From Nioella nitratireducens (GTDB taxonomy: Bacteria > Pseudomonadota > Alphaproteobacteria > Rhodobacterales > Rhodobacteraceae): a stretch of DNA of 64,000 nt. Both the position numbers and the translations under genes were made by a program. The DNA lies in assembly GCF_001879715.1 (NCBI RefSeq), contig NZ_MNBW01000006.1, positions 62,001 to 126,000 of the forward strand. The letters run 5' to 3'. Positions 11,862 to 64,000 of the stretch are shown piece after piece. Under the pieces are notes generated by a model. That model saw only the letters and a list, made by a program, of their open reading frames with translations. It searched no databases and was not told the origin of the DNA. How positions within the stretch are numbered: the first letter of the stretch is position 1; each line of letters starts with the position of its first letter.

Positions 11862-11908
11862 TGCCATGCGTGCACCCCCTGTGCACCCCCCGTACACCCC
11901 GCGTGCAG
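11862..11908. repeat. 11-bp-periodic GTGCAC array, copy 1
   Basis: After GCCATGC, three full 11-bp units follow: GTGCACCCCCT, GTGCACCCCCC and GTACACCCCGC, then a partial GTGCAG. Each unit begins with the palindrome GTGCAC or GTACAC, so identical faces recur every helical turn. A near-identical array in the other orientation is at 29819-29863. The segment just before it (CAGGGGGGTGC) can fold back on the first unit. Confidence 0.75.
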
Positions 11909-12455: not shown

Positions 12456-12568
12456 CTGTCATCCCCGCGAAAGCTGTCACCCCCGCGACGGCTGTCATCC
12501 CCGCGAAAGCGGGGATCTATAACCCTGTCGCTTGTGGCGGGAGGTCCCCGCTTTCGCGGGGATGACAG
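12456..12568. repeat. REP-like palindromic repeat cluster
   Basis: Three tandem 18-bp units share CTGTCATCCCCGCGAAAG (12456-12473, 12474-12491 with changes, 12492-12509). The last one extends to a 26-base arm (12492-12517) that pairs with 12543-12568 at 25 of 26 positions around a 25-base loop. The core CCCCGCGAAAGCGGGG is itself a palindrome. This type of REP/RPE-like element is scattered in many alphaproteobacterial genomes. Confidence 0.8.
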
Positions 12569-16287: not shown

Positions 16288-16766
16288 CTAGCGGAAGAAG
16301 CAGGTGCGGCCGGACCAGAGCGTGGTGATCGCGGGGCCGGTTTCCTCGACCAACGCCCAGACCCCGCCAACCTCGAACTCTTGTCCAAGGGTGGTGTTCT
16401 CCATCTGCACCGCAGGCGGCATGTCGCCAACGGTCAACCCCCCGGCGGCGGTCAGGTCGGGCTCGGTCAGAACCCAGCCGCGGAAATCGCCGTCGACGAA
16501 ATTCATCGTCAGCCCGTCGGCCCAGTAGGCCGCGGTCACGTCGCCGCAATCCGCCATGGTGGTGATGTCGGTCGGCTGCGCCCCCAGCAAGCGCGAGACG
16601 GTGGCAATCGCCCCCTCTTGCGCCCGGCCAAAGTCGATGCGCAGGTCTGTGCTTGCCGGTTGCAGGCCGCCCGCATCGGGGGTCAGGCCCTGCGGCGCGG
16701 GCCCTTCGGCGCCGGGCATGGCACAGGCGCAAGGGCGAGGGCGGAGAGCAGGAGAGCCGCGCGCAT
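16288..16766 (-). pseudogene. Lipoprotein gene with a one-base frameshift in its signal peptide
   Basis: An ATG one base after the regA stop (TAAGATG) begins MRAALLLSALALAPV, a signal peptide, but this frame ends after 27 codons. A second frame starting at 16719 gives MPGAEGPAPQGLTPD and runs 143 codons to 16288 (TLWSGRTCFFR). Adding one base at about 16722-16725 joins them as LALA-x-C-A-M-P-G, restoring a lipobox Cys. So the gene looks like an exported lipoprotein of about 158 residues broken by a one-base deletion, or the sequence has an error there. The mature part is unrecognised: Cys pair, no transmembrane helix. If real, the downstream ATG could still make a non-exported protein. Confidence 0.6.
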
Positions 16767-29744: not shown

Positions 29745-29818
29745 GGTGCGTTTTCAACGCAGTGAAATTCCCTTTTTGCCAACTTCTGCGCGGATCCGCA
29801 CAGGGCGCGCGTTTGCCG

Positions 29819-29863
29819 GTGCACGGGGGGTGCACGGGGGGTGTACAGGGGGTGCACGCATGG
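29819..29863. repeat. 11-bp-periodic GTGCAC array, copy 2 (inverted)
   Basis: Read on the minus strand this is GCCATGC, then GTGCACCCCCT, GTACACCCCCC, GTGCACCCCCC and GTGCACC, i.e. the same element as at 11862-11908 in the opposite orientation. It lies in the 255-base addA-trxA gap, which otherwise holds only the trxA promoter region. Confidence 0.75.
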
Positions 29864-44621: not shown

Positions 44622-44844
44622 GAAGAATGCGCTGGATCACCGCCAATCTGCGCGGCGGAGTGGTCTGACCAACCTAGGTCGGCAAGCGAAAGGCGTGTCA
44701 CGATGGATAATCCCGGCAGCACGTTGAAAAAGTGCCGTGGCGGCGCAGAGGTCAGAACGGCCGGGTAAACTATGACCTGGGAAATCAGGCAGCGCGGGCC
44801 CGGAGGGATGCGACAATACCCGTCAATCCGCCGGTGGCTGAAGG

Positions 44845-44944
44845 GGTGAGAGGCTGGACATCGACCCAAGCGGGGCTCGTTGTGGCTGCTACCTTCCGGT
44901 CCTGACCAGGTTGGCGAGGCGCTTGCCCGCGCCAACCTCTCACC
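44845..44944 (-). ncRNA. ffs: Signal recognition particle RNA (bacterial small type)
   Basis: A 100-base SRP RNA. The minus strand contains the invariant domain IV hairpin, CCTGGTCAGGACCGGAAGG followed by TAGCAGCC, which binds Ffh. The ends GGTGAGAGG and CCTCTCACC pair perfectly. Its place close to dnaX is typical. Between it and the phosphatase stop (44622-44844) no further gene is seen. Ends are set by the closing stem, so they may be off by a few bases. Confidence 0.93.
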
Positions 44945-57354: not shown

Positions 57355-57368
57355 TTGATCGAAATCAA
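57355..57368. promoter_or_regulatory. Perfect FNR box between hemN and fnrL
   Basis: TTGAT-CGAA-ATCAA matches the FNR/FnrL consensus TTGAT-N4-ATCAA exactly. It lies 36 bases before the hemN start and 37 bases before the fnrL start, so it can control hemN and give fnrL autoregulation. Confidence 0.9.
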
Positions 57369-59383: not shown

Positions 59384-59397
59384 TTGACATGGATCAA
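59384..59397. promoter_or_regulatory. FNR box 2 between usp and ccoN
   Basis: TTGAC-ATGG-ATCAA, one mismatch to the consensus, 96 bases before the ccoN start and exactly 32 bp from box 1, i.e. about three helical turns on the same face. Confidence 0.87.
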
Positions 59398-59493
59398 GGC
59401 TTGCTCGGGGCACCTGCGCGATGTGGGGGCAGATGGAACAGTTCCGGATGGCTCTCTTTGAGTCGCTACCGGGGCATGACGAAGGGACGATCA

Positions 59494-61845: not shown

Positions 61846-62067
61846 ATGATGGAAGCAACCTATCACATCATGCGGATCTTCGCGGGAAGCTGGGGACTGG
61901 TCTTCATGTTCCTCGTCTTCGTCGGCGTCATCCTTTGGGCCCTGCGGCCCGGAAGCCGGACTGTCCACGAGGACACCGCGAACATCCCGTTCCGCCATGA
62001 CGACAAGCCGGCCCGGTCCATGGTGACCCCAGGCCAAGACGCCCACCCCAAGGAGGCGCGGCAATGA
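61846..62067 (+). CDS. ccoQ: cbb3-type cytochrome c oxidase subunit CcoQ
   Basis: A 73-residue single-helix protein that stabilises the cbb3 complex in oxygen. It has a membrane helix ([20 protein letters not shown]) and the typical cytoplasmic [20 protein letters not shown] tail. Tandem ATGs at 61846/61849; GGAGGGC precedes. The stop overlaps the ccoP start (ATGA). Confidence 0.93.
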
Positions 62068-62972
62068 CCGAACAGAAACACCCTGAAGAACAGATCCTGC
62101 AGGAAGGCGATCCGGATACCACGGGTCACTCCTGGGACGGGATCAAGGAGTTCAACAACCCGCTGCCGCGTTGGTGGCTGTGGACCTTCTACGCCTGCAT
62201 CGTGTGGGCGGTGATCTACACGGTCCTGTTCCCGGCATGGCCGCTGGTGCACGGGGCGACCGCCGGTCTGCTCGGGTATTCCACCCGGGGCGAAGTGGCC
62301 GCCGAGATTGCCAGCTTCGAAGAGATGAACGCCCCGATCCGGGCGCGCATCGAAGACGTGGAGCTGGCGTCGATCAACCCCGACGACAACCCGGACCTCT
62401 ACAACTATGCCATTCAAGGTGGGGCCGCGATCTTCCGCACCTGGTGCGCTCAGTGTCACGGCTCGGGTGCGGCTGGCGTGCAGGGGCAGGGCTATCCCAA
62501 CCTGCTGGACGATGACTGGCTGTGGGGCGGCTCGCTTGACGATATCCACACCACCATAAGCCACGGCATCCGCAACGAGGACGATCCTGAAGCCCGCTTT
62601 TCGCAGATGGTCGCCTTTGACGGCATCCTGAGCGACGAGGAAATCTCCAGTGTCGTGCAGTATGTGCGCAACATTTCGGGCCAGTCGCATGACGCCGATC
62701 TGGCGGCAGCCGGAGAGCAGGTGTTCCTCGACAACTGTGCCGCCTGCCACACGGAAGACGGCACCGGCGACCGGATGCTCGGCGCCCCGAACCTGACCGA
62801 CGCCATCTGGCTCTATGGCGGGGACGAGGCGACGCTGGAAGAAACGGTTCGCAACGCCCGCTTCGGTGTGATGCCGGCATGGTCGGAAGACGCCAGTGCG
62901 GCAGGCCGCCTGAGCGAAGCCGAAGTGCGCTCGGTGTCTGTGTATGTCCACTCTCTGGGTGGCGGGGAGTAA
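62064..62972 (+). CDS. ccoP: cbb3-type cytochrome c oxidase subunit III, di-heme
   Basis: A 302-residue di-heme cytochrome c that receives electrons from soluble or membrane cytochromes. The N-terminal anchor is [20 protein letters not shown], preceded by the family motif [19 protein letters not shown]. Heme sites are CAQCH (128-132) and CAACH (225-229), each with a downstream Met ligand (QMVAFDG, GVMPAWS). Last gene of ccoNOQP; a repeat-rich 500-base gap follows before ccoG. Confidence 0.97.
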
Positions 62973-62980
62973 TCCCCAAC

Positions 62981-63258
62981 GAGATTTCCGGTGGCCCCTC
63001 CCGGCCATCGGAAAAAGGTGCCGGTTCTGGTCCTGTTCGCGCGTTTCCTGCAGAACCGGCACCCTAAATATCAAGAGTTCCCGAGGCTGCGTATCGGCCG
63101 ACGGACGAGGTGTCGGTTCCGGTCCTGTTCGCGCGTTTCCTGAGGAACCGGCACCTTATCAATCAAGAGATCCGGCGGCCCCTTCCGGCCGACGGACAAG
63201 GTGCCGGTTCTGGTCCTGTTCGCGCGTTTCCTACAGAACCGGCACCTTTCTATAACTT
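62981..63258. repeat. Three tandem units of about 92 bp, each with two stem-loops, between ccoP and ccoG
   Basis: Units start at 62981, 63075 and 63167 (94, 92 and about 92 bp). Each has a first hairpin, clear in units 1 and 3 (9 bp, with loops CCTCCC and CCTTCC), and a second hairpin whose 12-13 bp stem closes the invariant 20-base loop GTCCTGTTCGCGCGTTTCCT. Second stems are 63017-63029/63051-63063, 63109-63120/63144-63155 and 63200-63212/63234-63246. Units 1 and 3 have GTTCT/AGAAC; unit 2 has GTTCC/GGAAC, a compensatory pair change. No credible ORF is present. The remainder of 62973-63472 holds a terminator, a FNR box and the ccoG leader. Confidence 0.85.
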
Positions 63259-63281
63259 TTTCCGTAACTTGCCAGAAATTT

Positions 63282-63305
63282 GCCGCCTCGGCGGCGTTTT
63301 TCTGT
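63282..63305 (+). terminator. Terminator after the repeat array
   Basis: GCCGC-CTCG-GCGGC followed by GTTTTTCTG. A short but GC-rich stem with a T-run, at the end of the ccoNOQP transcript including its 3' repeats. Confidence 0.6.
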
Positions 63306-63385: not shown

Positions 63386-63399
63386 TTGATCCACGTCAA
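63386..63399 (+). promoter_or_regulatory. FNR box upstream of ccoG
   Basis: TTGAT-CCAC-GTCAA, one mismatch to the consensus, 74 bases before the ccoG start. It suggests a separate FnrL-controlled promoter for the oxidase assembly genes. Confidence 0.8.
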
Positions 63400-63472: not shown

Positions 63473-64000
63473 ATGAGTTCCACCGAAACCCCCCCGAAGC
63501 TTTATGCCGCCCGTGAACCCGTATTCCCCAAGCGGGTACACGGTACGTTTCGGAACCTGAAATGGCTGATCATGATCGTGACCCTCGGCATCTACTACAT
63601 CACGCCGTGGATTCGATGGGACCGGGGGCCGTCGCTTCCCGATCAGGCGGTGCTGGCTGACCTGTCCAGCCGCCGCTTTTTCTTTTTCTGGATCGAGATC
63701 TGGCCGCACGAGTTCTATTTCGTCGCGGGCCTTCTTATCATGGCTGGCCTCGGCCTGTTCCTGTTTACCTCGGCGCTTGGCCGGGTGTGGTGTGGCTATA
63801 CCTGCCCGCAGACCGTCTGGACCGATCTGTTCTACACCGTCGAACGCTGGATCGAGGGCGACAGGAACGCCCGTCTGCGCCTGTGGAAACAGGAATGGAA
63901 TGCCAAGAAGATCCGGCTGCGTTTGACCAAATACCTTGTGTGGTTGCTGATCGCTATCGCGACCGGCGGGGCGTGGGTGTTCTATTTCACCGATGCGCCG
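63473..64000 (+). CDS. ccoG: cbb3 oxidase assembly ferredoxin CcoG (RdxA/FixG), 3' end beyond the window
   Basis: The first 176 residues of a polyferredoxin-like membrane protein needed for copper handling during cbb3 oxidase assembly. It begins MSSTETPPKLYAAREPVFPK, has the first helix LKWLIMIVTLGIYYITPWIRW and the family signature LGRVWCGYTCPQTVWTDLFY with the conserved Cys pair near residue 105. The gene is cut by the window edge before the 2x[4Fe-4S] domain. AAGGA lies 13 bases upstream of the ATG. Normally ccoHIS follow. Confidence 0.95.
   Translation, partial: MSSTETPPKLYAAREPVFPKRVHGTFRNLKWLIMIVTLGIYYITPWIRWDRGPSLPDQAVLADLSSRRFFFFWIEIWPHEFYFVAGLLIMAGLGLFLFTSALGRVWCGYTCPQTVWTDLFYTVERWIEGDRNARLRLWKQEWNAKKIRLRLTKYLVWLLIAIATGGAWVFYFTDAP

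Follow-up and report, generated by a model that had tools for sequence, protein, structure and literature searches.

The ccoP-ccoG gap of Nioella nitratireducens contains a tandem array of three copies of an RNA element of Rhodobacterales, which matches the published motif HRC-8-4, and comparison of sequences suggests that the copies most likely encode a trans-acting small RNA (sRNA) that is induced at low oxygen. The element is real, conserved and already listed as a motif; as far as the published section on the motif goes, the function proposed here and the triplicated form are new. The array is located in the 3' UTR of ccoP and starts 8 nt 3' of the ccoP stop codon, within the stretch of 64,000 nt that was analysed (hereafter ‘the window’; contig NZ_MNBW01000006.1, positions 62,001 to 126,000, positions below being those of the window). 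As a preliminary description of this DNA had proposed, positions 62981-63258 consist of three units of about 92 nt, with start-to-start spacings of 92 and 91 nt (TRF: 92-nt unit, 2.9 copies, score 352). The same description gave each unit two hairpins, and the second of these (H2, with a stem of ~13 bp and a loop sequence common to all three units) was present in each unit folded alone, but the first (H1) is weak in unit 2 (Table 1). A scan of the window for the 21-nt loop string GGTCCTGTTCGCGCGTTTCCT that tolerated up to three mismatches returned three sites (63029, 63121 and 63212), all exact, compared to a mean of 0.00 in shuffles, and the H2 loop is invariant as had been claimed. Fold z-scores were -7.7 for the whole array and -6.6, -2.1 and -5.0 for units 1, 2 and 3, respectively. 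In the MFE fold of 290 nt both H2 arms of unit 1 are paired to the H2 arms of unit 3, leaving unit 2 as the sole unit in which H2 forms internally, so the whole array might fold as one structure. Unit 3 is followed by TTTCTATAACTTTTT, and no U run follows units 1 and 2; the predicted ccoNOQP-array transcript would end at the intrinsic terminator downstream. The genome contains the array at a single locus, to which exact copies of a 16-nt portion of the loop are also confined, with nine other sites carrying one or two mismatches. Rfam 15 gave no match on the array at gathering score and nothing convincing at E<=10 (best Cyano-2, E-value 0.007, 20.5 bits against a gathering score of 40). Elsewhere in the window, a Bacterial small SRP RNA (44844-44942, minus strand) is the sole Rfam gathering match, and short tandem repeats occur at 11869-11907, 12456-12510, 16686-16717 and 29818-29858.

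Table 1. Positions in the window of the array, its predicted signals and the flanking genes.
Feature	Position	Strand	Details and basis
FNR-box-like site TTGACCTGCATCAA	59352..59365	.	between divergent usp-like gene and ccoN
Second FNR box TTGACATGGATCAA 5' of ccoN	59384..59397	+	sequence
ccoP, last gene of ccoNOQP	62064..62972	+	ORF; NCBIfam TIGR00782 above cut-off; tblastn match in 28/29 related loci
Unit 1	62981..63072	+	H1 62985-63014 (loop CCTCCC 62997-63002)
Unit 1 H2	stem 63017-63029/63051-63063, loop 63030-63050	+	fold, covariation
Unit 2	63073..63163	+	weak H1 63081-63104; H2 63107-63157, loop sequence as unit 1
Unit 3	63164..63258	+	H1 63171-63196; H2 stem 63198-63212/63234-63248, loop sequence as unit 1
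Predicted intrinsic terminator TGCCGCCTCGGCGGCG + TTTTT	63281..63301	+	fold; 2 terminator-like rows there, shuffles mean 0.9
FNR box TTGATCCACGTCAA of predicted ccoG promoter	63386..63399	+	CTAAGA at class II -10 spacing; sequence only
ccoG, first gene of ccoGHIS	63473..64000, continues past window	+	NCBIfam TIGR02745 match over part in window, below cut-off (gene truncated by window end)

Conservation of the element was assessed in 31 units taken from the window and from 24 of 29 related loci (see below), the loops of which are identical by the way the loci were found. Changes on both sides with pairing kept were seen at 15 of 22 pairs, and 96.8% of cells were paired overall (92.5% in H1 and 99.8% in H2), compared to 28-46% in a control with slid partners. 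The covariation score was reached by 0 of 500 shuffles, which upholds the earlier claim of selection on RNA structure; the stem changes reported with that claim (GTTCT/AGAAC to GTTCC/GGAAC, and GCC to GTC through G.U) are present. Among 117 further copies, G.U combinations in H2 outnumbered A-C combinations by 196 to 17 in a fit that allowed wobble. When the 117 stems were refitted under the wobble rule of each strand, the plus strand fitted better in 83, the minus strand in 9 and both equally in 25, indicating that the RNA is the plus strand, i.e. in the sense of ccoNOQP. The loop core CUGUUCGCGCGUUUC (15 nt) is nearly fixed across copies, and perfect copies of the core CTGTTCGCGCGTTTC are found in 106 of the 117 covariance-model matches, a degree of conservation that may be overstated because the model itself favours the core. 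At the H2 end, TTT was found in 41/79 copies adjacent to ccoP and 24/38 other copies (65/117 in total, background 10.9%) and TTTT in 23/79 and 12/38 (35/117 in total, background 2.6%), so H2 is terminator-like in many but not all copies. The CCTCCC loop of H1, complementary to Shine-Dalgarno (SD) sequences, had been pointed out for unit 1, where it exists; it is absent from unit 2, and a role as the key feature is not supported. CCTCCC occurs 5' of H2 in 19/31 units of the nearest clade and in 7/36 copies with their own promoter (0.97 in shuffles), and 0/79 ccoP-adjacent copies carry it, so the idea of a conserved anti-SD loop fails family-wide. A CCUCCC-type, CU-rich anti-SD loop is the mark of CcsR or cuckoo RNA, and in this respect the element differs from them. 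We also observed a C-rich 5' part before H2 in the predicted RNAs of six loci detached from ccoP (L098, L109, L126, L132, L138 and L179).

The distribution of the element was surveyed in 295 genomes of the family, representing 294 genera. Genome contigs were scanned for exact occurrences of GGTCCTGTTCGCGCGTTTCCT, which identified 29 stretches from genera that include Nioella, Roseicyclus, Roseibacterium, Rhodophyticola and Boseongicola, with ccoP upstream in 28; the remaining one (L059) is at a contig end and has ccoG downstream. Two or three units are present in the Nioella loci, in L042 and in the window, and one unit with the exact string in the other named loci. L059 and L049 belong to one strain of Nioella sediminis, the assembly of which breaks inside the array (contigs 37 and 38), so the copy number in this species is uncertain. 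The covariance-model search suggested in the preliminary description, run with a model built from the window and related units, matched 125/295 family genomes under strict filters, by which weak copies may be missed. One copy was found in 123 of the 125 genomes and three copies solely in two genomes of the window's genus. A pattern of the loop core matched 127/295 genomes, compared to 3 matches for the reversed control; among the 14 genomes found by pattern only, the core was at the cco locus in 7 and elsewhere in 7, and two genomes had an additional second, chance pattern match. In total, the element was detected in 132/295 genomes (125 by model and 7 by pattern) and not detected in 163/295. 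Within the flank examined, 113 of 117 model matches lie downstream of ccoP; the other four have ccoG downstream in three cases and neither ccoP nor ccoG in one (L105). On these genome sequences, genomes with the element normally carry a single copy, at the ccoP-ccoG locus, and the sequence 3' of it differs between loci. Inverted repeats arranged in tandem could also belong to selfish DNA, such as a dispersed palindromic repeat of the REP/BIME type, a reading to which we give next to no probability since it is already contradicted by the single locus in the own genome, the single copy in almost all matched genomes, the fixed location and covariation that preserves G.U on one strand.

The preliminary description knew of no earlier account of the array. 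In our literature search of titles and abstract openings we recognised one, in the paper that reported HRC-8-4 (Brewer et al. 2021, RNA Biol; PMC8632094), and no ‘cco’ was found in the main text of the Ruegeria and Paracoccus sRNA papers. As described in its section of that paper, HRC-8-4 has 160 representatives, all in Rhodobacterales, is located between ccoNOQP and ccoGHIS and sometimes before hvrB, and consists of a strong stem of terminator type, the loop of which has conserved nucleotides; the authors state its function as unknown and speculated on a terminator-type riboswitch or on binding of HvrB (PMC8632094). The array shares with this motif its place in the ccoNOQP-ccoGHIS gap, its taxon and its form, and is matched to it on these grounds and not by consensus letters. 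In comparison to the present work, the HRC-8-4 section mentions neither an FNR promoter nor a tandem array nor any target (PMC8632094).

We then considered where the element lies relative to ccoP and to FNR boxes. These counts cover the copies of 117 of the 125 genomes matched by the model, with G000, G004 and the six genomes that contain L073-L078 set aside. Relative to the end of the ccoP match, 79 copies lie within 60 nt (‘adjacent’), 34 are detached by 80-1921 nt, and four have no ccoP in the flank examined. A perfect FNR box (TTGAYNNNNRTCAA) is located 21-103 nt 5' of 33/34 detached copies, the exception being L177 with no box, and 5' of three of the four copies without ccoP, the fourth having a box with one mismatch. 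By comparison, 0/79 adjacent copies have a perfect box within 150 nt, and the background at up to one mismatch was 110/2340 random 150-nt stretches. The box is also present at detached copies from the pattern search (L206 and L208) and at L069. When 36 copies were aligned on the box, A was found at box+23 in 33, and YANNNT at box+22 in 15, compared to no more than 3 at each of the remaining offsets and when read in reverse. In class II FNR architecture the box centre is at -41.5, and the distance from the box centre to the -10 signal in the 36 copies as a group equals class II spacing. The RNAs predicted from these promoters are 72-150 nt long in 35/36 copies and 194 nt in one. The region 5' of ccoN carries FNR boxes in 16/16 named loci for which it is available, with two in the window, where class II spacing predicts a start of the ccoNOQP mRNA near 59432, with GATGTG, a poor match, as -10. 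A fourth perfect FNR-box match in the window, at 57355, is outside the cco operon. Overall, by sequence the detached element follows an FNR box of its own, with a -10 signal at class II spacing, and the adjacent element follows the FNR-box ccoNOQP operon, and both findings agree with the earlier suggestion of an sRNA carried on the low-oxygen ccoNOQP mRNA. The FNR box and predicted promoter of detached copies are new in the present analysis. The paper on FnrL ChIP in R. sphaeroides lists ccoNOQP and rdxBHIS, together with the sRNAs RSs0019 and RSs2461 from other loci (PMC4263372); the passages of it that were examined (12 of 19) name no sRNA at the cco locus.

Mapped onto a 113-row ccoP tree, the adjacent and detached arrangements need 22 changes at fewest, at least 8 of them on well-supported branches, compared to a mean of 29.4 with shuffled labels; the arrangement is clustered, yet has changed many times. 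What stays constant across loci is FNR control and the loop, and what does not is the position relative to neighbouring genes, and this is our main argument in favour of a product that acts in trans. The same evidence bears on two readings in which the element acts in cis. A terminator-embedded riboswitch or protein-binding attenuator of ccoG or hvrB, in which a ligand or HvrB on the loop opens the terminator, would suit the terminator-like H2 with its frequent T runs and the LysR-like ORFs (this name, like the usp-like and pilin-like gene names, was assigned by eye) that lie 3' of the element at some loci, L081, L082 and L088 among them. However, in the window a terminator distinct from the array and a predicted promoter with an FNR box lie between array and ccoG, three tandem copies before a separate terminator are no simple attenuator, downstream content varies among loci, and the FNR promoter of detached copies would drive a transcript predicted to end at H2 itself; we thus regard this reading as improbable. 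We consider it similarly doubtful that the element is chiefly a 3' barrier that stabilises ccoNOQP mRNA against 3' exonucleases and keeps it apart from ccoGHIS, as the preliminary description had offered as its other option. In its favour, 79/117 copies place stable hairpins no more than 60 nt from the end of ccoP, and for the adjacent arrangement a barrier is feasible and could coexist with an sRNA role, but it would need neither a fixed loop nor its own FNR promoter, leaves the copies with such a promoter unexplained, and several detached copies come after a terminator-like hairpin behind ccoP (by eye).

Candidate targets of the putative sRNA were sought at translation starts. Exact sites of RBS type (pattern AGGAAACGCGCN{0,9}ATG) occur in 164/295 genomes, at 1.12 per genome with the element (n=132) compared to 0.67 without it (n=163; p = 0.001, with two self-matches removed and with genome size and kinship ignored). 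No gene recurred among the first 30 site loci. A further 40 loci were then picked by hand, of which 33 came from genomes with the element, and the resulting 70 included petB three times (L291 from the first 30, L319 and L323), hmgA twice, a corrinoid protein twice, and two distant pairs with 23-24% identity. HmgA, fumarylacetoacetase and pyruvate dehydrogenase (PDH) E2 passed NCBIfam cut-offs, and the cytochrome b and corrinoid protein family matches were below cut-off. The string AGGAAACGCGC precedes the starts of the corrinoid protein (two genera), PDH E2 (one) and fumarylacetoacetase (one), and these loci (L320, L324, L329 and L333) are possible further targets. For petB, SD-to-start strings, which needed an AGGA site and the expected N-terminus, were recovered from 131/295 genomes, all of different genera. 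Pairing with the loop over at least 10 contiguous nt was found in 22/67 element-positive genera (three of these genomes, G046, G032 and G282, being discovery genomes) compared to 1/64 element-negative genera (p = 9e-7), the latter being G212, with 13 nt; over at least 9 nt the numbers were 26 and 5. The mean duplex energy was -13.0 kcal/mol in positive and -9.4 kcal/mol in negative genera (p = 9e-4), and the difference was reached by 0/300 shuffled loops. The pairing strings fit AGGA[A/G][A/G]CGCG in 21/22 cases, with pairing kept through G.U. On a 32-row tree, 0/19 element-negative genera that lie among the pairing ones and have 85-91% identical cytochrome b reach 10 nt, compared to 9/13 element-positive genera, which were hand-picked; tested by phylogeny, this leaves two independent pairs on well-supported branches and a sign test that is not significant. 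Thirty more element-positive genomes yielded pairing of at least 10 nt in 2, i.e. in 24/97 positive genomes examined, so petB pairing cannot be what fixes the loop everywhere, and the window's own petB pairs over 8 nt only.

The hmgA gene was found in 24 of 30 chosen genomes, with positives drawn from those with petB pairing and the start codon taken as that with the best SD score. Its duplex energy was -16.2 in 14 positive compared to -10.2 in 10 negative genomes (p = 0.011), and pairing reached at least 10 nt in 4/14 and 0/10 (p = 0.11) and at least 9 nt in 5/14 and 1/10 (p = 0.34), respectively. In G004, a discovery genome of the window's genus that was excluded from the counts, hmgA pairs over 13 nt. 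We regard petB and hmgA as candidate targets in relatives of the window's genome, with petB better supported than hmgA. Complementarity to the loop within the ccoG coding sequence (GCGCGAACAGG, at the REQVC motif) seemed recurrent at first but was rejected as a codon coincidence because the GAA/GAG codon varies and the 11-mer is kept in 17/40 loci. Small pilin-like ORFs lie between the element and ccoG at L045, L050, L056, L063 and L067, and the RBS of that at L045 (AGGAAACGCGCAATG) is complementary to the loop over 11 nt. These pairing data also bear on the idea that the loop binds a conserved protein, such as an RNA chaperone or regulator, and that the RNA is a sponge or processing signal and not a base-pairing sRNA. 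The 15-nt core, perfect in most matches to a model that favours it, exceeds the usual length of an sRNA seed and speaks for such binding. Against it, petB start regions track the presence of the element, and hmgA weakly so, and self-pairing of the loop through CGCGCG is unremarkable: loop-loop kissing by this route was rejected, since 84/500 shuffled loops are equally strong. We consider protein binding as the main role rather unlikely, and favour a base-pairing sRNA.

Overall, the preliminary interpretation is partly supported, and the following model would accommodate the results. At low oxygen, FNR would turn on ccoNOQP and with it this RNA, either directly or as the 3' end of the mRNA, the latter presumably being the case in the window's genome. 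The units could be released by cleavage in the AT-richer linkers; release of CcsR from its mRNA has been ascribed to RNase E (PMC8625941), and the same enzyme would be our guess here. The exposed loop would then serve as the seed and cover SD regions of target mRNAs, among which may be petB (cytochrome bc1 complex) and hmgA (an oxygen-using dioxygenase), the lowered translation of which would reduce aerobic functions when oxygen falls; triplication may raise the RNA dose. To this reading in its full extent, i.e. HRC-8-4 as an FNR-dependent global sRNA of Rhodobacterales that is the counterpart of FnrS, has its seed in the loop of its own terminator-like hairpin, has moved repeatedly between 3' UTR and independent production with FNR control retained throughout, covers the RBS of petB and hmgA and is present in triple dose in the window's genus, we give an even chance. 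If true, cytochrome bc1 and oxygen-using catabolism would be trimmed as oxygen falls, and an orphan motif for which the literature offers a riboswitch guess would become a testable oxygen-controlled sRNA in a widespread bacterial family, for which a start site, a length, a seed and first candidate targets are now predicted. The natural series of production from an mRNA 3' end or from an own promoter would also offer a case for how 3'-UTR sRNAs originate or become independent.

Among known sRNAs, as described in the papers cited, CcsR1-4 of Rhodobacter sphaeroides (PMC8625941, PMC10253847) resemble the array, with its putative sRNA units, in that several sRNAs lie in one 3' UTR, and they come from the same order of bacteria. 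However, CcsR1-4 lie behind ccaF1 (DUF1127) and an RpoHI/RpoHII promoter and the array lies behind ccoP; kinship with CcsR, to which the array had been compared, is not borne out by this host gene, by the CU-rich loop, which is not conserved, or by Rfam at gathering score. RepG of Helicobacter pylori (PMC8295292) base-pairs through its terminator loop, as is proposed for the element, but its loop is C/U-rich and directed against a G-repeat, unlike the core CUGUUCGCGCGUUUC. NarS, from the narK 3' end (PMC8139620), derives from an mRNA under FNR control, as the putative sRNA of the adjacent arrangement would, whereas the element lies in a 3' UTR in some genera and behind a predicted promoter of its own in others. 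In expected function the element resembles FnrS of E. coli (PMC8139620), in that an FNR-driven sRNA would lower aerobic functions at low oxygen. The two differ in genomic place and in that the putative seed of the element is in a terminator-like loop, and the element would be a counterpart of FnrS by function, with no claim of kinship in sequence.
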